Of a stretch of 20,516 nt of DNA, positions 128-17,133 are shown piece after piece. Each line of letters starts with the position of its first letter. Position 1 is the first letter of the stretch. Origin of the DNA: a virus. A model generated the notes under the pieces. The model searched no databases and had not been told where the DNA came from. It saw nothing but the letters and a program-made list of their open reading frames with translations. The stretch is from positions 1 to 20,516 of IMG/VR virus record IMGVR_UViG_3300033149_005750. One strand, given 5' to 3'. A program made the translations under genes and the position numbers.

Positions 128-610
128 ATGGCTTGTAAACAATGTGGAAAGCCTTTGGTATTCTCTGCGTCTTTATTTTGCCACAGAACATGTAAGGACG
201 AATACTATGCAGCGAAAGTACAGGACGCCATCCAACCGCCGGAAGGTGTACGTTTAGTTGAAGGCGACTATTCCGGCGTGGAGGTTGCTCTTGCAGCCGC
301 AGCTATGGTGGAATGCGCGGGGTTACTGCCTTGCGTTATTTGTGGAGATAAAGTTGCCAACGCTCTTCTCGTAGATGGGGAACTCATTTGCCACTCCTGT
401 TCTAAAATCCCAGTGGAATGCGAAAGCTGCGGCTCCGAACTCAAGGAGTACTATCCAGACAGTGTAAACAGTACTTGCGAAATCTGTGAGAAGACTGTCG
501 TGGGTTATTGGGTTGGCCATGCCCATGAGTCAGATGAGATGCGTGCTACAGCTTCGATGATTGCGGAAGTAGGCAATTTAATTCTCGAACGTTTGAAGGA
601 GAAGGCATAA
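128..610 (+). CDS. Small zinc-finger protein carrying a polymerase motif-A-like segment
   Basis: A 160-residue protein of unknown function. Start 128 follows TAGGAGG (113-119) at 8 nt. Three cysteine clusters are visible. The N-terminal one is C3-x2-C6 with C18-x3-C22 followed by KDEY, a small treble-clef-like zinc finger. Later come CVIC/CHSC (about residues 70-91) and CESC/CEIC (about 98-120), both zinc-ribbon-like. Between the first finger and the ribbons, residues 37-59 read PPEG..LVEGDYSGVEVALAA, which matches motif A of family-A DNA polymerases and resembles the motif A of the polymerase encoded at 15712-17133. The rest of the polymerase is absent, so this is not a polymerase. The N-terminal finger is paralogous to that of the gene at 1145. 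The stop overlaps the next ATG (TAATG). Zinc binding is inferred from cysteine spacing; the partner is unknown. Confidence 0.8.
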   Translation: MACKQCGKPLVFSASLFCHRTCKDEYYAAKVQDAIQPPEGVRLVEGDYSGVEVALAAAAMVECAGLLPCVICGDKVANALLVDGELICHSCSKIPVECESCGSELKEYYPDSVNSTCEICEKTVVGYWVGHAHESDEMRATASMIAEVGNLILERLKEKA

Positions 611-3252: not shown

Positions 3253-3780
3253 ATGAAACCAAGCAAAGAACAAGTCCTGCAAATGCTCGAAAGTGGAGAA
3301 CTGTACGAAGAACATAAAGATATGCTCCACAAAATCGCCAACCAAATCCACAGACAGCATCCGTGGTGCAACAAAGGAGACCTCGTCTTCGAGGGCAACT
3401 TCGCAATCGTGAAAGCCGCCTACAAGTGGAACCCCGAAAAGAATATGGCAATCTCTACCTGGGTCTACAAGGTCCTGTATGGCTGGATGAAGAACGTCGC
3501 TATCCACCCACGGCAGTTTGACACCTTTGCAACCGATCACACAGATCCCGTCTTCGAGACGGAAGCCCGTACCGACTTTTCCGGATTCATCTCGGAACTC
3601 CGGGAAGATGCAAAGCTGCTCGTTCGCGCCGTTATCGAAGCACCTGGCGAGCTGGGAGACCTCATGCGTCCTCGTGCTCCTGTCGCTTCGCAGAAAGCTC
3701 TCCGCAAGTACATGACGAAGCAAGGCTGGAGCGAAGGACGCATTGAGTCCGCCTGGCTTGAGGTAGCCGAATGTCTCTAA
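3253..3780 (+). CDS. Sigma-70 region-2-like transcription factor
   Basis: A 175-residue protein resembling a small phage-type RNA polymerase sigma factor. Residues about 22-82 match sigma-70 region 2: GDLVFEGNFAIVKAAYKWNPEKN then ISTWVYKVLYGWMKN, equivalent to the family's DLxQEGxxGLxxAxxxFDPxxG and FSTYAxWWIR segments (core-polymerase binding and -10 melting). The C-terminal part (about 117-173) ends in KALRKYMTKQGWSEGRIESAWLEV, a helix-turn-helix-like pair that could stand in for region 4. It is shorter than a primary sigma factor. It would redirect host RNA polymerase to phage promoters; this is inferred from the fold. It is the first gene after the TTATAGT box and overlaps the helicase gene by 10 nt. 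Confidence 0.7.
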   Translation: MKPSKEQVLQMLESGELYEEHKDMLHKIANQIHRQHPWCNKGDLVFEGNFAIVKAAYKWNPEKNMAISTWVYKVLYGWMKNVAIHPRQFDTFATDHTDPVFETEARTDFSGFISELREDAKLLVRAVIEAPGELGDLMRPRAPVASQKALRKYMTKQGWSEGRIESAWLEVAECL

Positions 3781-9723: not shown

Positions 9724-10395
9724 ATGAATTGTATTCTATCCCTATCCGGCGGCATGGACTCAGGCACCTTGCTCAGGCGCTGTCAGCTTGAGTATGTCGA
9801 CGTCCTCGCCGTAGGTTTCACGTATGGATCAAAACACAATAAATGGGAACAGATCTGCGCTCAGCGGCTCTGTGATCATTATGGTGTAGAGTTCCTCCAG
9901 ATCGACATCTCCAACATTGGGCAGCATCTGGAATCCAATCTCCTCAAGTCGGGTGGTGATATTCCCGAAGGACACTATGAAGAAGAGTCCATGAAGCAGA
10001 CGGTGGTCCCAGGTCGTAACACCATTTTTATGGCCATTCTTATGGGCATTGCGGAGTCCCGAGGCGCGGGGCATATTGCAGTAGGCATCCACTCGGGTGA
10101 TCACGCTATCTATCCCGATTGTCGTCCTGGTTTCTACAAGGCGTTCAACGGTGTGTGCCACCATGCTACGGAAGGCAAGGTAGAAGTCGTCGCGCCATTC
10201 CTTCATACAGACAAGACTGGGATTCTTAAATGGGGCTTCCGTCACGACTTCCCCTACCACCTCACCCGCACATGCTACAAGGATCAGAGAGACCCCTGCG
10301 GCAAATGTGGCGCCTGCCAAGAACGGCTGGAAGCTTTCTCCAATATCCGCCGCAAAGATCCCGTAAAATACGAGGACGAAAATTCCAATGTATAG
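9724..10395 (+). CDS. queC: 7-cyano-7-deazaguanine (preQ0) synthase QueC
   Basis: A 223-residue QueC, close to the usual cellular length (about 230). It converts 7-carboxy-7-deazaguanine to preQ0 with ATP and ammonia. The PP-loop ATP site SGGMDS is at residues 8-13, the second signature VPGRN at 95-99, and the zinc site is C184, C192, C195, C198 (TCYKDQRDPCGKCGACQ), the same spacing pattern as bacterial QueC. No glutamine amidotransferase (Gat) domain is fused, unlike phage enzymes linked to archaeosine-like dG+. Its start follows the terminator at 9676-9704. It overlaps queD by 8 nt. All key residues appear intact. Confidence 0.95.
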   Translation: MNCILSLSGGMDSGTLLRRCQLEYVDVLAVGFTYGSKHNKWEQICAQRLCDHYGVEFLQIDISNIGQHLESNLLKSGGDIPEGHYEEESMKQTVVPGRNTIFMAILMGIAESRGAGHIAVGIHSGDHAIYPDCRPGFYKAFNGVCHHATEGKVEVVAPFLHTDKTGILKWGFRHDFPYHLTRTCYKDQRDPCGKCGACQERLEAFSNIRRKDPVKYEDENSNV

Positions 10396-10822
10396 AATCA
10401 GAAAACAGCTCAAATGGGAAGGGGCACATCGGCTCGTGACCAGCTACACAGAAGCCTGCCAACGTATCCATGGACACAGCTATCGAGCTGACGTTATCAT
10501 TGAAGCGAAGGAGCTTGATGAGGATGGCATGGTGGTAGACTTCAAGAAAATCAAGGATGCCATAGCAGGTGTCATTGATCTGCTGGATCATCGTACAATG
10601 CTTCACGTGGACGACCGGAGTTTGTTCGCGGACGTCAACAATGAGATTGTGCAGGACAGTATCATCTGGGTGGACTTCAATCCAACCGCTGAGAATATGT
10701 GCCAGTACATCCTCCAGTTTCTCATCATCCACCTGGACTGTTCTAAGTTCCACTCTGTAGCAATTCGTATCCATGAAACTTGCACTGGAGACGCAGAATT
10801 GAAGGAGATCCTAGATGCCTAA
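10388..10822 (+). CDS. queD: 6-carboxy-5,6,7,8-tetrahydropterin synthase QueD
   Basis: A 144-residue member of the 6-pyruvoyl-tetrahydropterin synthase/QueD family. The zinc ligands are H14 (GAHRL), H28 and H30 (RIHGHSY), with the catalytic cysteine C24 upstream (EACQRIHGH). The catalytic D67-H68 pair (LLDHRTML), PTAENM (99-104) with E102 and the terminal glutamate in RIHETCTGDAE are all present. It converts dihydroneopterin triphosphate, the FolE product, to 6-carboxytetrahydropterin, the second preQ0 step. The start lies within the end of queC and GAGGAC is upstream. It overlaps queE by 8 nt, so the operon is translationally coupled. Confidence 0.95.
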   Translation: MYRIRKQLKWEGAHRLVTSYTEACQRIHGHSYRADVIIEAKELDEDGMVVDFKKIKDAIAGVIDLLDHRTMLHVDDRSLFADVNNEIVQDSIIWVDFNPTAENMCQYILQFLIIHLDCSKFHSVAIRIHETCTGDAELKEILDA

Positions 10823-11462
10823 AATCCAACGCCTCAAGCTCACAGAAATCTTCTACACCCTGCAAGGCGAAGGCCGTTACACAGGTTATCCTGCGGTCTT
10901 CATACGATTGGCAGGGTGTAATCTAAATTGTCCTTGGTGCGACACTGTCCATTCCTCCAACTTCCAAGCCACAGCGGATACCATTTGCATGTGTGTTGAA
11001 GGCAACCTTCCTGCGAAAGACAGTGAGTCTGTCTTGCTCGTAATCACGGGAGGCGAGCCCACTTTGCAAGACTACTGGACTCTTGTGAGAGAGCTGCATA
11101 GTTGGTTCCCGAACAATACTATTGCAATGGAGACCAATGGCCGGGCGGCGGATGAAACCGCTTTGAGGATTCTACGGAACACCCAAAATCTCTATCTTAC
11201 TGTATCGCCCAAGTTAGCGGTGGAGGACTGCTCCAAGTTTTTCGACAATCCGGCTTGGTGCGGGGATGAACTGAAAGTAGTACTGGACCCCAAGGCCGAT
11301 TTGACGGTACTGGAATCCCTGCCTGAGAAATTAGGAGATCGTTTTACCCATTACTACATACAACCGTGTAGTGAAGATTATCAACCAGCAATCAGACTCA
11401 TAAGGAGAAACCCGAGATGGAAGCTATCAGTGCAGACACACAAAGTGACGGGAGTGGAGTAG
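10815..11462 (+). CDS. queE: 7-carboxy-7-deazaguanine synthase QueE (radical SAM)
   Basis: A 215-residue radical SAM enzyme. EIFYTLQGEG (11-20) is the typical QueE opening and the iron-sulfur loop is C35-x3-C39-x2-C42 (GCNLNCPWCDT). GGEPT (79-83) binds SAM. The ending RWKLSVQTHKVTGVE matches the family's SLQTHKxxG close. It converts 6-carboxytetrahydropterin to 7-carboxy-7-deazaguanine, the substrate of QueC. AAGGAG (10801-10806) sits 8 nt before the ATG. Its last 46 nt overlap the folE fusion gene in another frame, an overlap much longer than others in the operon. Confidence 0.95.
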   Translation: MPKIQRLKLTEIFYTLQGEGRYTGYPAVFIRLAGCNLNCPWCDTVHSSNFQATADTICMCVEGNLPAKDSESVLLVITGGEPTLQDYWTLVRELHSWFPNNTIAMETNGRAADETALRILRNTQNLYLTVSPKLAVEDCSKFFDNPAWCGDELKVVLDPKADLTVLESLPEKLGDRFTHYYIQPCSEDYQPAIRLIRRNPRWKLSVQTHKVTGVE

Positions 11463-12346
11463 AGAAAGTCTACCTCAAGTGGAATGATGTATACGCTATG
11501 ATACATCAGAATTATGCCAACTGTAAAGACAACTTCCCCACCGATCGCCCAATCAAAATCTTTGGCATTCCCCGTGGCGGTGTTTACACTGCTTTGTCTT
11601 GGATGGCTGTGCTGCCCGACGCCGTCGAATTGGTGGACCATCCAGAAGCATGCGACATGTTTGTAGATGACATCATTGATACCGGAGCAACAGCGAAGTT
11701 CTACAATGAAAAGTATGGCAAACCCGTTGCCGCCATGCTCGCCACCGATGAAGCGACGAAGCTTCTCTGGTACGTATTCCCTTGGGAAGCACTTCAAGCG
11801 GAAACAGGACCGACGGAGAACGTTAGGCGCGTTCTAGAATACATTGGTGAGGAACCCGATCGTGAAGGTCTTCTGGAAACGCCAGATCGTGTCGTTCGTT
11901 CATGGGAACAGCTTTACGGCGGCTATGGGAAGGACCCGAAGGCTATTCTGAAAGTGTTCGAAGAGGACACCAGCGACGAAATGGTGGTGCTTAAAGACAT
12001 TGAGTTCTATTCCACATGTGAGCACCACATGATTCCATTCTTCGGGAAAGCTCACATTGCCTATATCCCCAATGGTAAAGTCGTGGGCATCTCCAAGTTG
12101 GCTCGTCTCTTGGAAGTGTTCGCCCGCCGCCTGCAAATCCAAGAACGCCTATGCCAGCAGGTGACCAAAGTGCTCATGGAAGAGCTTGGGGCGAAAGGCG
12201 CTGCCTGCGTCCTTGAAGCTCAACATCTGTGCATGCTTGCGCGTGGAGTTGAAAAGCAGAATAGCGTCATGGTCACCTCCAGTACCGTCGGGGCATTCAG
12301 AGACGATCCTGCCACAAGGGCAGAGTTCATGAATCTCATCAAGTAG
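11417..12346 (+). CDS. folE: Phosphoribosyltransferase-GTP cyclohydrolase I (FolE) fusion
   Basis: A 309-residue two-domain protein. Residues about 16-125 look like a compact type I phosphoribosyltransferase: GIPRGG (50-55), the PRPP-binding loop MFVDDIIDTGAT (81-92) and an end WYVFPWE (118-124) as in purine PRTases. Residues about 128-309 are a complete FolE: TPDRVVRSWEQLY (155-167), CEHHMIPFFGKAHIAY (201-216) with zinc/catalytic residues C201 and H204, and EAQHLCMLARGV (267-278) with H270 and C272. FolE makes dihydroneopterin triphosphate from GTP, the first preQ0 step. The role of the fused PRTase is unknown; guanine salvage to feed GTP is one idea. ATG 11417 follows AAGGAG at 9 nt and lies inside queE. 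The next in-frame ATG (11498) would cut into the PRTase domain. Confidence 0.9.
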   Translation: MEAISADTQSDGSGVEKVYLKWNDVYAMIHQNYANCKDNFPTDRPIKIFGIPRGGVYTALSWMAVLPDAVELVDHPEACDMFVDDIIDTGATAKFYNEKYGKPVAAMLATDEATKLLWYVFPWEALQAETGPTENVRRVLEYIGEEPDREGLLETPDRVVRSWEQLYGGYGKDPKAILKVFEEDTSDEMVVLKDIEFYSTCEHHMIPFFGKAHIAYIPNGKVVGISKLARLLEVFARRLQIQERLCQQVTKVLMEELGAKGAACVLEAQHLCMLARGVEKQNSVMVTSSTVGAFRDDPATRAEFMNLIK

Positions 12347-12355
12347 GAGGCCGTT

Positions 12356-13543
12356 ATGGCCCAAAGACAGTTAATGATGGACTCCGGCGCTTTTACGGTG
12401 TGGAACATTGGAGGTGAAGTAGACCTCGAAGCCTACATCCAATTCTGCAAGGAGTATGAGGACGTCATTGATGCCATTGTTGCATTAGACGTCATTCCAG
12501 ATTCGCCGGCCCCTAGTGTCGTTGAAGATGCTTGCCAACGTGGCTGGGACAACTATCAGAGGATGATAGATGCCGGCCTTCCAAAAGACAAAGTCCTACC
12601 GGTATTCCATCAATTCGATGGATTCCATTGGTTGGAGAAGTATATGGAAGCGGGAGTGCCCTACATTGGGCTTTCCCATCGTAAGAAAGGTGTCTCCCGG
12701 GAACAGCAAATGATGTGGCTGGATTCCTGTATGAATCTCGTGTGTGATTCTGACGGCAATCCGCTCATCAAAACGCATGGGTTCGGTTTAACATCGGTTC
12801 CTATGATTGTGCGATACCCCTGGCATACTGTGGACTCAAGCACAGCCTTGAAAGAGGCTATGTACGGAGGCATTTCTGTCCCATGGAAAAGGGATGGAAA
12901 ATGGCAAATACTTCGCACGCCGAGGCACATATCTGTTTCCAATAAATCAGGAGATAAGCACTTCAAGAACGCCCATTATCATACTTTGCCTCCATTGGCC
13001 CAAAAGATGATTCGGGATTGGCTTGACGAAGCTGGTGTTCCCGTTGGTGTGTCTAAGAATCGCAAGGAGGACAAGGGGTACAAACACATCACCGGAAAGG
13101 AGAACATTCTTGAGAAGAATGAAGACCATCTTGTCATCGAGGAGATTGTGGAGCCCGGTGTTACCAACACTGTGCAAGGACGTACATCTGTTAACATGTA
13201 CTTTTACGAACGTGTGGAGCGGGAATTTGCAGGCGTCCTTCGGAAGTACGAAGCTGTCGCAAATGAACGCAGACTACTTCCAGTCAACGAATCTTGCGAA
13301 GTGGCGAACAGGCCCACGATAGACAACCTGAATATATACATTGCAGGATGCACGGGCACCCCAGGAACAGGCGCAGATCTGTCCACGGCAAAAAACAGGA
13401 TCTTGTCCTACCACTATATCGGAAACTCTCAGAAAGAAGAATTCAACGAATTCGTCAAACAGATAAGGAATAAGAAAAATGGAAGTAAAAAGAGCAACGG
13501 TGCTAAGAAAGCTGGAAAACGCCAGCGTCGCAACGACAAGTAA
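12356..13543 (+). CDS. dpdA: DpdA-like 7-deazaguanine DNA transglycosylase
   Basis: A 395-residue protein related to tRNA-guanine transglycosylase (TGT) and the phage DNA enzyme DpdA. The opening LMMDSGAFTVW (D9) corresponds to TGT's DSGGFQ aspartate, VALDVIPD (D45) to TGT's substrate-binding FDECP, and HGFGLTS ... HTVDSST (D160) to the GxG and nucleophile-aspartate region. It would swap guanine in phage DNA for preQ0 or a derivative. Cysteine zinc ligands typical of tRNA TGTs are not visible, as expected for DpdA. Position right after queC-queD-queE-folE strongly supports this role. TAGGAGG (12344-12350) gives the start. The Lys/Arg-rich C-terminal tail overlaps the clamp gene by 65 nt. The C-terminal ~150 residues are unassigned. 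Confidence 0.88.
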   Translation: MAQRQLMMDSGAFTVWNIGGEVDLEAYIQFCKEYEDVIDAIVALDVIPDSPAPSVVEDACQRGWDNYQRMIDAGLPKDKVLPVFHQFDGFHWLEKYMEAGVPYIGLSHRKKGVSREQQMMWLDSCMNLVCDSDGNPLIKTHGFGLTSVPMIVRYPWHTVDSSTALKEAMYGGISVPWKRDGKWQILRTPRHISVSNKSGDKHFKNAHYHTLPPLAQKMIRDWLDEAGVPVGVSKNRKEDKGYKHITGKENILEKNEDHLVIEEIVEPGVTNTVQGRTSVNMYFYERVEREFAGVLRKYEAVANERRLLPVNESCEVANRPTIDNLNIYIAGCTGTPGTGADLSTAKNRILSYHYIGNSQKEEFNEFVKQIRNKKNGSKKSNGAKKAGKRQRRNDK

Positions 13544-14516
13544 TGCAATCTTGGAACAGTCGGATACCTTCGTTTTCAAGGATGGCAAATTGGTCACGTT
13601 CGATGGGGACATCTGCACGATGCAGGATTCCCCGTTCGGTGATGAGATCGAAGGCAGCATCGTGGCCGGCGACTTCCTGAAAATGCTCCAACGGTTCCCA
13701 GACGAAGTCCTCAAAGTCACAGGCCGCGCATCGGAACTGGTCATTAAAGGAAAACGACGTCAGGCTGGCGTCAAGATGATGGCGGAAGTGCTGCTTCCAT
13801 TCGATGACGTTCCTGTCCCTTCCAAGTTCAAGAAAGTCCCAGAAGGTATGAAGGGAAAACTCATCCAAGCCGCACAAGTTTGTGGGAAGGACGAAACTGC
13901 CCCGAAGACAACGCATGTACACATCGCCAAGGACCGGATCGAAGCTACGGATAGCTTTCGTGTATTTCGTGCTGAGGCGAAGACGAACATGCCACGTCCG
14001 GTACTTGTGCATGCCCAGAGCTTAATCGCAGCCTGTCGTTTCGAGTTGAAGAAGATGACTGTATCCAAGGAAGGCTGGTTTCACGTGATGACAGAAGACG
14101 GCATGCTTGTGTCGATTCTTTGCTGCGCCGACGAATACTATGCTTCCTCGATGATGGATCAATTGCTGGACGTGGTTGGAGAAGAAGTCAAGCTTCCAGC
14201 GAACCTCCCGGACATCCTATCTCGTGCTGAAGTCATGGACACCCCAAGTCTGTCGATTGGCGGATGGGATTCTCAAGTCACTATCTCACTGGAAGACAAC
14301 GTTCTGACGGTAGCCAGTCGCAAGGAAGAGGGTTGGTTCCGTGAGCGTCAGAAAGTCAAGTATAACGGTCCTGCTATGACGTTCTCGATTCACCCGGCTT
14401 TCCTGAAGGAGCTGGTAGACAGAACGAGCACTGTGACAATCAGCGATCGCCAGATTAAAGTGGAAGTTAACGATACTCATTTCACCGCCGCCTTGGAATC
14501 TGGAGGAGACGAGTAG
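13479..14516 (+). CDS. DNA sliding clamp (DnaN/beta-clamp-like)
   Basis: A 345-residue protein with the three-domain look of bacterial beta clamps, though diverged. The N-terminal domain includes LVTFDGDICTMQ (about 38-49), the middle one HVHIAKDRIEATDSFRVFRAE (like DnaN's ATDxHRL segment), and the C-terminal one TFSIHPAFLKELVDRTSTVTISDRQIKVEV, close to DnaN's final domain. It would encircle DNA and hold the phage polymerase, loaded by the ATPase encoded at 17852. ATG 13479 with AAGGAA upstream lies 65 nt inside dpdA; starting later would remove the first clamp strand. Its TAG shares a base with the GTG start of the next gene. A phage-type clamp without close DnaN descent is the alternative. 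Confidence 0.78.
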   Translation: MEVKRATVLRKLENASVATTSNAILEQSDTFVFKDGKLVTFDGDICTMQDSPFGDEIEGSIVAGDFLKMLQRFPDEVLKVTGRASELVIKGKRRQAGVKMMAEVLLPFDDVPVPSKFKKVPEGMKGKLIQAAQVCGKDETAPKTTHVHIAKDRIEATDSFRVFRAEAKTNMPRPVLVHAQSLIAACRFELKKMTVSKEGWFHVMTEDGMLVSILCCADEYYASSMMDQLLDVVGEEVKLPANLPDILSRAEVMDTPSLSIGGWDSQVTISLEDNVLTVASRKEEGWFRERQKVKYNGPAMTFSIHPAFLKELVDRTSTVTISDRQIKVEVNDTHFTAALESGGDE

Positions 14517-15715
14517 TGGCTGGATTCTTCAATCCACACTCCTTCGAAAAGGGCAGTAAGGGCAAACCGTCACGGATCACTCAGTGTGGGAAGTGCGGTT
14601 TGTCCAAACAGTGCCTTTCTCCAAAGATGGAGGTAGGAGGAGAGAAGACCCGGCGAATTATGTTCGTCGGGGAATCCCCTTCTTATATCGAGGACCAACG
14701 CGGTCAGCATTTCGTAGACGATAGCGGCGAACTACTACGTGACGCCTGTTTGCAGTATGGACTCGATATAGAAGACGCGATGCTCACGAACGCAGTGTGT
14801 TGCATGCCGAAGAAGAAAGTAGAGACATTCATGGTCTCCGCCTGCCGCCCAGCCTTGCTCAAGGCTATTAAGAAATACAAACCGCATGTCATAATTCCAC
14901 TCGGACACGCTCCATTGGAATCCCTGATGTATGGTTTGTGGGCGAAGAGCCTTGGAACTGTGGAACGTTGGGCAGGCTGGAAAATACCCGTCGCGGAATA
15001 CAATGCTTGGGTCTGCCCAACTTATGCTCCGTGGTATATTCTCAAGAACGAAAAGAACCCAGTGGTAAAATTGGTCTGGGAAAAGCATCTGCGCGAAGCG
15101 ATTCGCATGGAAAAGAGGAAGGTGGAATATTATGATCTAAAAGACTTGGAGGATCAAGTTGAGATCGTAACCTCCACGAAGGAAGCTGAGAAGCGGATGT
15201 ACGACCTTGCAGAGCGGGAAGGTGATCTGGCGTGGGACATTGAGACTACTGGACTGAAGCCCGATCGTAAGAAGCAGAAGATTGTCTCTGTCAGCTTCTG
15301 TCTTGACGGAGCGGAGACCTGGGCATGCATGATGAAGCCTGAGCTCCGCAATGCTTTGTCCACAGTGTTAAAGTCTCGCAAGCTGCGCAAGATTGCATCC
15401 AACCTCAAATTCGAGGAACGATGGAGTATTGCAAAACTTGGGCATGGTGTCAGGAATTGGCACTGGGACACGATGCTTGCGGCTCATGTGCTTGATAATA
15501 GACCATCTATCTGCTCTGTAAAATTCCAGGCATTTGTTTTGCTTGGCATAGCAGACTTTGACAGTCACATCAGTGCATACTTGAAAGCAACGGGTTCTAA
15601 TGGCATCAACAGGATACACGAACTTGATGAAAAAGACCTGCTTTTGTACAATGGCCTTGATAGTCTATTAGAATACCTCGTTATGCTGGAACAGAAGGAG
15701 ATGATGTTTGGATGA
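14516..15715 (+). CDS. UDG-like domain fused to DnaQ-type 3'-5' exonuclease (PolA editing half)
   Basis: A 399-residue two-domain protein starting at GTG 14516 behind GGAGG (14502-14506). The N-terminal ~195 residues match iron-sulfur family 4/5 uracil-DNA glycosylases: cluster cysteines C24, C27, C95 or C96 and C110, and the loop VGESPSYIEDQRG. The motif-B histidine (family YHPAY) is alanine here (TYAPWYIL, about 169-176), so glycosylase activity is doubtful. Residues ~205-399 are the PolA proofreading exonuclease: ExoI DIETTG (D241, E243), ExoII NLKFEERW (aspartate replaced by E300) and ExoIII YNGLD (Y378, D382). The polymerase half is the next gene, overlapping by ATGA. The C-terminus EQKEMMFG resembles a clamp-binding peptide. 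Confidence 0.85.
   Translation: MAGFFNPHSFEKGSKGKPSRITQCGKCGLSKQCLSPKMEVGGEKTRRIMFVGESPSYIEDQRGQHFVDDSGELLRDACLQYGLDIEDAMLTNAVCCMPKKKVETFMVSACRPALLKAIKKYKPHVIIPLGHAPLESLMYGLWAKSLGTVERWAGWKIPVAEYNAWVCPTYAPWYILKNEKNPVVKLVWEKHLREAIRMEKRKVEYYDLKDLEDQVEIVTSTKEAEKRMYDLAEREGDLAWDIETTGLKPDRKKQKIVSVSFCLDGAETWACMMKPELRNALSTVLKSRKLRKIASNLKFEERWSIAKLGHGVRNWHWDTMLAAHVLDNRPSICSVKFQAFVLLGIADFDSHISAYLKATGSNGINRIHELDEKDLLLYNGLDSLLEYLVMLEQKEMMFG
15695..15700 (+). promoter_or_regulatory. Shine-Dalgarno of the polymerase gene inside the exonuclease C-terminus
   Basis: AAGGAG lies 11 nt before ATG 15712 and within the codons for Q-K-E near the end of the exonuclease gene. With the ATGA overlap it argues for reinitiation at the polymerase start rather than a frameshift fusion. 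Confidence 0.55.
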
Positions 15716-17133
15716 TACCTTATACGAAGAAAGCCTATAAGCTCATGCACCAGGGCGCCATCGCCCTCGCGAAAGTAGAATCCAATGGCATTCGCATGGA
15801 TGTAGGCTACCTCGACAAAACTATCGAGACGACAGGCAAGAAAATCATAGAGCTGGAGAAGGAACTACGGACTGGAAAAGTAGCCAAAGAATGGAAGAAG
15901 ATGTTCGGTCGAAAGATGAAGTTCGGCTCCCCGGATCAGCTTGGCAAAGTCCTCTTCGATGGACTTGGCTATGAATCCGTCGGGATGACGGCAGGCGGAG
16001 ACAGGTACAAGACGGATGAGAAAGCTCTTGCAGGTGTGGAGGATCCGTTCGTCAAAGACTATCTGAAATTGAAGAAACTCCAGAAAGTCCATGTCACCTA
16101 TTTGAAGGGCATAAGGAATGAGATCGTAGACGGTTTACTCCATCCGTTTTTCAACCTGCACACTGTCCGCACGTTCAGGTCCAGTTCATCCAATCCGAAC
16201 TTCCAGAATATACCCGTCAGAGACCCCGAGATTGGACGTATGGTGCGCCAGGCATTCATACCACGGAAGGACAGCCACTTAGTTGAGGTTGACTATTCTG
16301 GTATTGAGGTTGGCATTGCAGCATGTTATCACAAAGACCCACGCATGTTGGAGTATATCGCAGACGACACGAAAGACATGCATCGCGATATGGCTACGGA
16401 ATGCTTTCTGTTGCCCAAAGACGAAATGGTTCCGCGAGACGATGTGGATAAAGCACGCATCAAACGAATCCGGTATTGTGGAAAGAATATGTTCGTCTTT
16501 CCGCAGTTCTACGGCGACTATTATATTGATTGCGCCAGGAGTTTATGGGACGCAGCAGAACACATGGAGTTGAAGTTGCGCGATGGAACACCACTTCGGG
16601 AGCATCTGAGGAGGAAAGGTATAACGGAACTTGGCGAATTAGATCCGAAGGAAAAGGCAGGTTGGAACACGTTTGAGCGGCATCTGCAAGAAGTGGAGAA
16701 GTCGTTCTGGAATGAGCGTTTCCCAGTATACAATCAGTGGAAGAAAGATTGGGTTCAGGAGTACTTCAAGAAAGGTTGGCTGAAAACTCTGACAGGTTTC
16801 ATCTGCCAGGGCGCTTTGAGGCGTAATCAAATTGTGAATTACCCAATCCAGGGTTCTGCGTTTCATTGTCTCCTCCAGTCTCTCATCACGCTTGTCAATA
16901 AGGAACTGAGACGACTCAAAATGAAATCGAAGGTCGTTGGACAGATTCATGACTCGATCTTAGCTGACGTTCCAGCCGTGGAACTGGATCAGTTCTTGCA
17001 GGTTGTTAATCACGTTACGACCGTCCTCCTTCTAGAGAAGTTCCCATGGATCATTGTCCCGATGGAAATTGAAGCTGAAGTAACGCCGCTCAATGGATGT
17101 TGGGCGGATAAACAAGAGGTAAAGATAGCATGA
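15712..17133 (+). CDS. Family-A DNA polymerase, polymerase domain only
   Basis: A 473-residue protein covering only the palm, fingers and thumb of DNA polymerase I. It opens with the pre-thumb LAKVESNGIRMDVGYL, then RTFRSSSSNPNFQNIP (153-168). Motif A is LVEVDYSGIEVGIAA (190-204) with catalytic D194 and steric-gate E199. Motif B is GKNMFVFPQFYG (257-268), YPIQGSAFHCL (377-387) follows, and motif C is QIHDSILADV (411-420), where D414 is kept and the usual glutamate after it is serine. No exonuclease domain is present; it is encoded separately just upstream. The split falls in the normal exo-polymerase linker with nothing missing. It overlaps the next gene by ATGA. It is the phage replicative polymerase, presumably clamp-assisted. 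Confidence 0.93.
   Translation: MIPYTKKAYKLMHQGAIALAKVESNGIRMDVGYLDKTIETTGKKIIELEKELRTGKVAKEWKKMFGRKMKFGSPDQLGKVLFDGLGYESVGMTAGGDRYKTDEKALAGVEDPFVKDYLKLKKLQKVHVTYLKGIRNEIVDGLLHPFFNLHTVRTFRSSSSNPNFQNIPVRDPEIGRMVRQAFIPRKDSHLVEVDYSGIEVGIAACYHKDPRMLEYIADDTKDMHRDMATECFLLPKDEMVPRDDVDKARIKRIRYCGKNMFVFPQFYGDYYIDCARSLWDAAEHMELKLRDGTPLREHLRRKGITELGELDPKEKAGWNTFERHLQEVEKSFWNERFPVYNQWKKDWVQEYFKKGWLKTLTGFICQGALRRNQIVNYPIQGSAFHCLLQSLITLVNKELRRLKMKSKVVGQIHDSILADVPAVELDQFLQVVNHVTTVLLLEKFPWIIVPMEIEAEVTPLNGCWADKQEVKIA

Follow-up and report, generated by a model that had tools for sequence, protein, structure and literature searches.

The window, by which we mean the whole stretch of DNA analyzed, is the entire viral record IMGVR_UViG_3300033149_005750 (20,516 bp, linear). 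It belongs to a clade of phages that share a conserved replication block, in which an SNF2-type helicase, a primase, a divergent DnaB, a sliding clamp, a UDG-exonuclease, a family-A polymerase, and a clamp loader are encoded, together with a queuosine-pathway cluster. The set of relatives used here comprises 68 loci, all of which encode polymerases related to that of this phage. The features that concern us are a small zinc-finger gene near the start of the window, a neighboring gene, and the phage polymerase:

114 to 119, + strand: Shine-Dalgarno-like AGGAGG 5' of the ATG at 128 (direct sequence reading).
128 to 610, + strand: 160-aa zinc-finger gene with a motif-A-like segment, an orphan in the collections searched (translation, codon usage).
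128 to 217, + strand: N-terminal treble-clef-like zinc finger, C3-x2-C6-x11-C18-x3-C22 then KDEY (score against gene 1145-1600; library hits sub-threshold only).
194 to 298, + strand: segment resembling motif A of family-A polymerases, residues 23-57 (profile match, shuffle control, and score against the phage's own polymerase).
254 to 298, + strand: core of the motif-A-like segment, LVEGDYSGVEVALAA.
332 to 487, + strand: C-terminal zinc ribbon pair, C69xxC72/C88xxC91 and C98xxC101/C117xxC120 (cysteine pattern; sub-threshold Pfam hits).
1145 to 1600, + strand: 151-aa neighbor with an N-terminal zinc finger like that of 128-610 (47% identity over residues 2-37).
1265 to 1390, + strand: DnaB Walker-B-like segment of the neighbor, residues 41-82, IVDYLTVID...SLKEIAKKHKVVMHTVKQP (PHROG, NCBIfam, Pfam).
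15712 to 17133, + strand: family-A DNA polymerase domain of the phage itself, 473 aa (Pfam DNA_pol_A, E = 1.1e-48; 68 related loci).
16279 to 16322, + strand: phage polymerase motif A, which aligns with 254-297 at the DNA level.

Gene 128-610 is a plausible coding gene, with codon usage like that of the phage's other genes (0.123 in frame 0 against a shuffle maximum of 0.052). Its product is predicted to belong among the zinc-ribbon/treble-clef proteins, with six CxxC/CxxxC knuckles in three pairs at typical spacing; the flanking of the polymerase-like segment by zinc fingers, which the preliminary description had pointed out, is borne out by the C3-C6-C18-C22 finger before it and the two CxxC knuckle pairs after it. 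CxxC pairs and treble-clef and zinc-ribbon spacing are shared with small proteins of the zf_Tbcl, DUF2116, DZR, and Gin-like kinds, but every library hit falls under the curated cut-offs and the protein is without a family assignment. The sub-threshold Pfam zinc-ribbon hits of the C-terminal ribbons (DUF7573, 3e-5; Gin, 1e-3; DZR, 0.015) suggest a fold class alone for the zinc modules, and AlphaFold models of 128-610 and 1145-1600 (pLDDT 43 and 34) are too poor for use. A T7-type primase zinc domain was considered for residues 68-159 and rejected, as its E values (0.3, and 0.11 against the PDB) are in the chance range.

Homologues of the 160-aa protein were absent from viral contigs, phages, plasmids, GTDB genomes, and 50 related viral records, with the searches returning only polymerase motif A, chance-level matches, or nothing. 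A degenerate DNA pattern that combined the zinc finger with DYSGVE at unchanged spacing gave zero matches, and there was no relative among the 261 pattern matches from a scan with the two-paralogue alignment of 128-610 and 1145-1600. Because these scans work by exact matching of short peptides or by similarity to a single sequence, remote homologues could have escaped them; a literature search returned nothing on point. The SNF2 helicase is present in 26 of 35 related records, and the stretches read upstream of its gene in relatives contain neither a counterpart of the first 3 kb of the window, which holds gene 128-610, nor an equivalent zinc-finger gene; the sole gene in common there is the sigma-like gene at 3253. 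Gene 128-610 thus lies in a region that is not conserved among relatives, where new genes are expected.

Residues 37-57 of the protein read PPEGVRLVEGDYSGVEVALAA. The preliminary description had taken residues 37-59 as motif A, and both the translation and a profile comparison agree with this reading. A 39-column motif-A profile, derived from the polymerases of ∼65 related phage loci with the window excluded, finds 128-610 with 23.2 bits and E = 3.6e-5 in a set of 17,142 distinct ORFs, although E values for this segment are flattering because it was picked out post hoc in the preliminary description. The next non-polymerase ORF reaches 10.1 bits, real polymerases score 54 to 86 bits, and 257,130 shuffled ORFs peak at 13.9 bits. 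Aligned with residues 170-204 of the phage's own polymerase, residues 23-57 have a BLOSUM62 score of 66, whereas 3000 shuffles averaged 31 and never exceeded 53; the imitation of one polymerase active-site strand spans 25 to 35 residues of the small zinc-finger protein. A profile search with the segment in isolation, as had been proposed, matches DNA polymerase only (PHROG, 0.057; NCBIfam, 0.12), and five shuffles each of this segment and that of the neighbor gave nothing comparable in PHROG (a single match to an unknown family, E = 0.23). When 2.3 Gb of phage records are searched by tblastn with the 39-aa segment, most of the matches carry a DNA polymerase annotation (in 8 Arthrobacter phages and in Lactococcus phage KSY1, at E values of 2 to 4; 1 of 11 records is unannotated). 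Among the conserved families of the window run as profiles, only the polymerase matches the 128-610 protein, and the best protein matches of the segment are from the same phage clade, with the LVE.DYSG.EV signature in common.

The segment has the appearance of motif A (DYSxxE) with its flanking strand and helix, sharing with family-A DNA polymerases (PF00476, phrog_17) the LVE.DYSG.EV.LAA core; as noted previously, the catalytic aspartate and steric-gate glutamate are kept, and D47 and E52 are at the right spacing. In contrast to those polymerases, the likeness is of 37 residues only, without palm, fingers, thumb, motifs B and C, or the context arginines. The full-length family-A polymerase profile aligns to residues 22-58 alone, and 128-610 has neither motifs B and C nor any remaining portion of the palm and fingers, consistent with the earlier statement that no other polymerase part is present; Pfam DNA_pol_A does not match 128-610 up to E = 1. 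The first arginine of the motif-A context, invariant in 67 of 67 aligned polymerases, is replaced by Q32, and the second, R in 56 of the 67, by P38. With motifs B and C absent and both arginines lost, the protein is not a polymerase, and since it has no other polymerase part it cannot polymerize.

The similarity to the phage's own polymerase is visible in the DNA too, as had been claimed, over 44 nt (254-297 versus 16279-16322; blastn E = 5.9e-4 within the window), but with 10 mismatches and not the 11 reported. This identity (34/44 nt) is largely a consequence of the protein similarity; synonymous recoding of the segment attains the observed DNA score in 3 to 9% of trials (3.1 to 9%, by scoring). 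The segment and the own polymerase have 8 of 15 codons identical compared with 5.0 expected, which is not significant (P = 0.08), and immediately upstream of the segment is a faint, out-of-frame similarity of 18 nt (P ∼0.03). The own polymerase ranks 1 of 69 by DNA score and 6 of 67 by protein identity, and when each polymerase gene is compared by blastn with its own locus, similar E values turn up at other loci too. The phage's own polymerase is thus a weakly supported candidate for the donor of the segment.

The neighboring gene 1145-1600 has a closely similar N-terminal finger (local score 71, against a maximum of 37 in 1000 shuffles), with little similarity past residue 38, where 4.5% (local) or 11% (global) of shuffles equal it. 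The linkers that follow the fingers align as D.A..PP....[LI]V..DY, and 14 of 1000 shuffles are as good. The segment of the neighbor at residues 41-82 matches phrog_19 DnaB-like helicase (E = 6.6e-5), NCBIfam PRK05973 (E = 0.0049), and Pfam DnaB_C (E = 0.14). The neighbor has the Walker-B-like segment alone (phrog_19 columns 462-504 of 621), with the other helicase parts absent, and does not have the RecA core with Walker A and Walker B of a DnaB-like helicase. It has no match to the DnaB family of this phage itself, and tblastn with this piece against phages recovered no DnaB at a cutoff of E = 10. There are two readings of the neighbor: either both genes took pieces of replication genes, or both linker strands end in a motif-like DY, a reading to which the weak alignment of the two linkers lends support.

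The explanation that we rank first, above chance or a linker character common to both genes, is that the segment in 128-610 is a captured, catalytically dead fragment of a polymerase that now links the modules of an orphan zinc-finger protein, and we hold this with moderate confidence. A captured fragment, one of the origins offered in the preliminary description, is favored because the resemblance to motif A holds up statistically and is restricted to a single stretch flanked by zinc fingers; the part of that proposal that derives it from the phage's own polymerase is weakly backed (P of 0.03 to 0.09). Counted against capture is that the segment is short and diverged, at 23 bits compared with the far higher scores of real polymerases, as are the loss of the two context arginines, the non-significant codon identity, and the weakness of the DNA excess. 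By this account, 128-610 would be a small, fast-evolving accessory phage protein, with an N-terminal treble-clef-like finger and a C-terminal double zinc ribbon, in which the stretch between the modules most likely derives from motif A of a family-A polymerase in the phage's own clade. Uptake may have occurred by illegitimate recombination, with the phage's own gene as a possible source, and the fragment would now act as a strand-helix linker joining the zinc-binding modules. The whole protein would bind nucleic acid or a partner protein, perhaps as a small accessory or early regulator.

Pieces of the polymerase gene do get rearranged in this clade, as shown by a partial duplication at loci L037 and L038. 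There, the 5' end of the polymerase gene recurs as a 206-bp copy with 86% identity, within a chimeric ORF whose terminal part is a piece of the exonuclease C terminus. These ORFs resemble 128-610 in joining a fragment of the polymerase gene with other coding sequence, but they are tandem duplications at the polymerase locus, whereas 128-610 has an internal, strongly diverged fragment ∼16 kb off. A fragment search of 18 window families against all ORFs, with contig-end pieces and distant family members set aside, found L037 as the sole other comparable internal fragment. The chimeric ORF lies at about 9965-10267, upstream of the intact polymerase. At L024, the start of the polymerase is duplicated as an identical 50-bp copy, ∼500 bp upstream.

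The leading alternative is a chance resemblance, in which the hydrophobic strand of an inter-finger linker, ending in Asp-Tyr, happens to read as motif A; a linker strand common to the paralogues may then account for both look-alikes. We regard this as a real possibility, if less probable than capture. Such strands are present in many proteins, the neighbor has IV-DY at the equivalent place behind the same finger, with the linker alignment described above, and the codon-level case for a common DNA origin is weak. A scan of viral contigs for the DNA pattern of VE.DYSG.EV found six loci, four of which are long polymerase-like frames and two of which are copies of one 52-codon non-polymerase ORF on two contigs, showing that chance occurrences exist but are rare. 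However, the profile score of the segment is well above the shuffle maximum, the match covers 35 residues, including E45, G50, E52, V53, and A56-A57, and so extends beyond DY alone, and the paralogues are hardly alike past residue 38. The 52-codon ORF (L127, 1485-1513; L129, 5069-5097) reads VEVDYSGVEVDLA and is outside any polymerase, either by chance or as an unexplained look-alike.

It is also conceivable, though doubtful, that 128-610 and 1145-1600 represent a modular group of small phage proteins on which motifs of replication enzymes are displayed, for instance as a way to engage the binding partners of these enzymes; in each, the same finger would be followed by a strand from the active site of a different enzyme (polymerase motif A in 128-610, DnaB Walker B in 1145-1600). 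The preliminary description had raised a decoy role, by which, in a dominant-negative manner, the motif-A peptide would allow 128-610 to associate with partners or substrate of the polymerase and to influence replication of the phage, a rival phage, or the host. That adjoining paralogues mimic active-site strands of two different replication enzymes speaks for such a role, but an isolated motif-A strand is not known to have binding activity; the decoy role is unsupported, and we consider it improbable. A like action of the Walker-B-like segment of the neighbor on the replicative helicase is similarly improbable, given that the DnaB family of this phage is not matched by that segment. Least likely of all is that 128-610 is what remains of a mobile endonuclease, of HNH or homing type, which brought along polymerase sequence flanking its insertion site, since, although phrog_1271 'HNH endonuclease' matches the protein at E = 4.9e-5, the match covers profile positions 180-234 of 361 only, apparently cysteine columns, falls to E = 0.13 with the N-terminal piece and E = 0.001 with the protein minus the segment, and the HNH (beta-beta-alpha-metal) motif is absent from the translation.

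If the segment is indeed a captured scrap, gene 128-610 would be a clear case of a phage orphan gene in which fragments of conserved genes have been put together behind zinc-finger modules. Were the Walker-B likeness of the neighbor also real, this would hint at selection for the display of replication-enzyme motifs; unless that helicase-like segment is confirmed, the finding is a modest curiosity.

Elsewhere in the window, QueC, QueD, QueE, FolE, and a tRNA-guanine-transglycosylase-like gene are encoded at 9724-13543, a set that suggests 7-deazaguanine modification of the phage DNA. The GTP cyclohydrolase I (FolE; 11417-12346) has a phosphoribosyltransferase-like N-terminal domain (GIPRGGVY, VDDIIDTGAT; phrog_8995, E = 5e-4). 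Immediately 5' of the exonuclease-less polymerase domain, at 14516-15715, a uracil-DNA glycosylase domain and a 3'-5' exonuclease are joined in one fusion.
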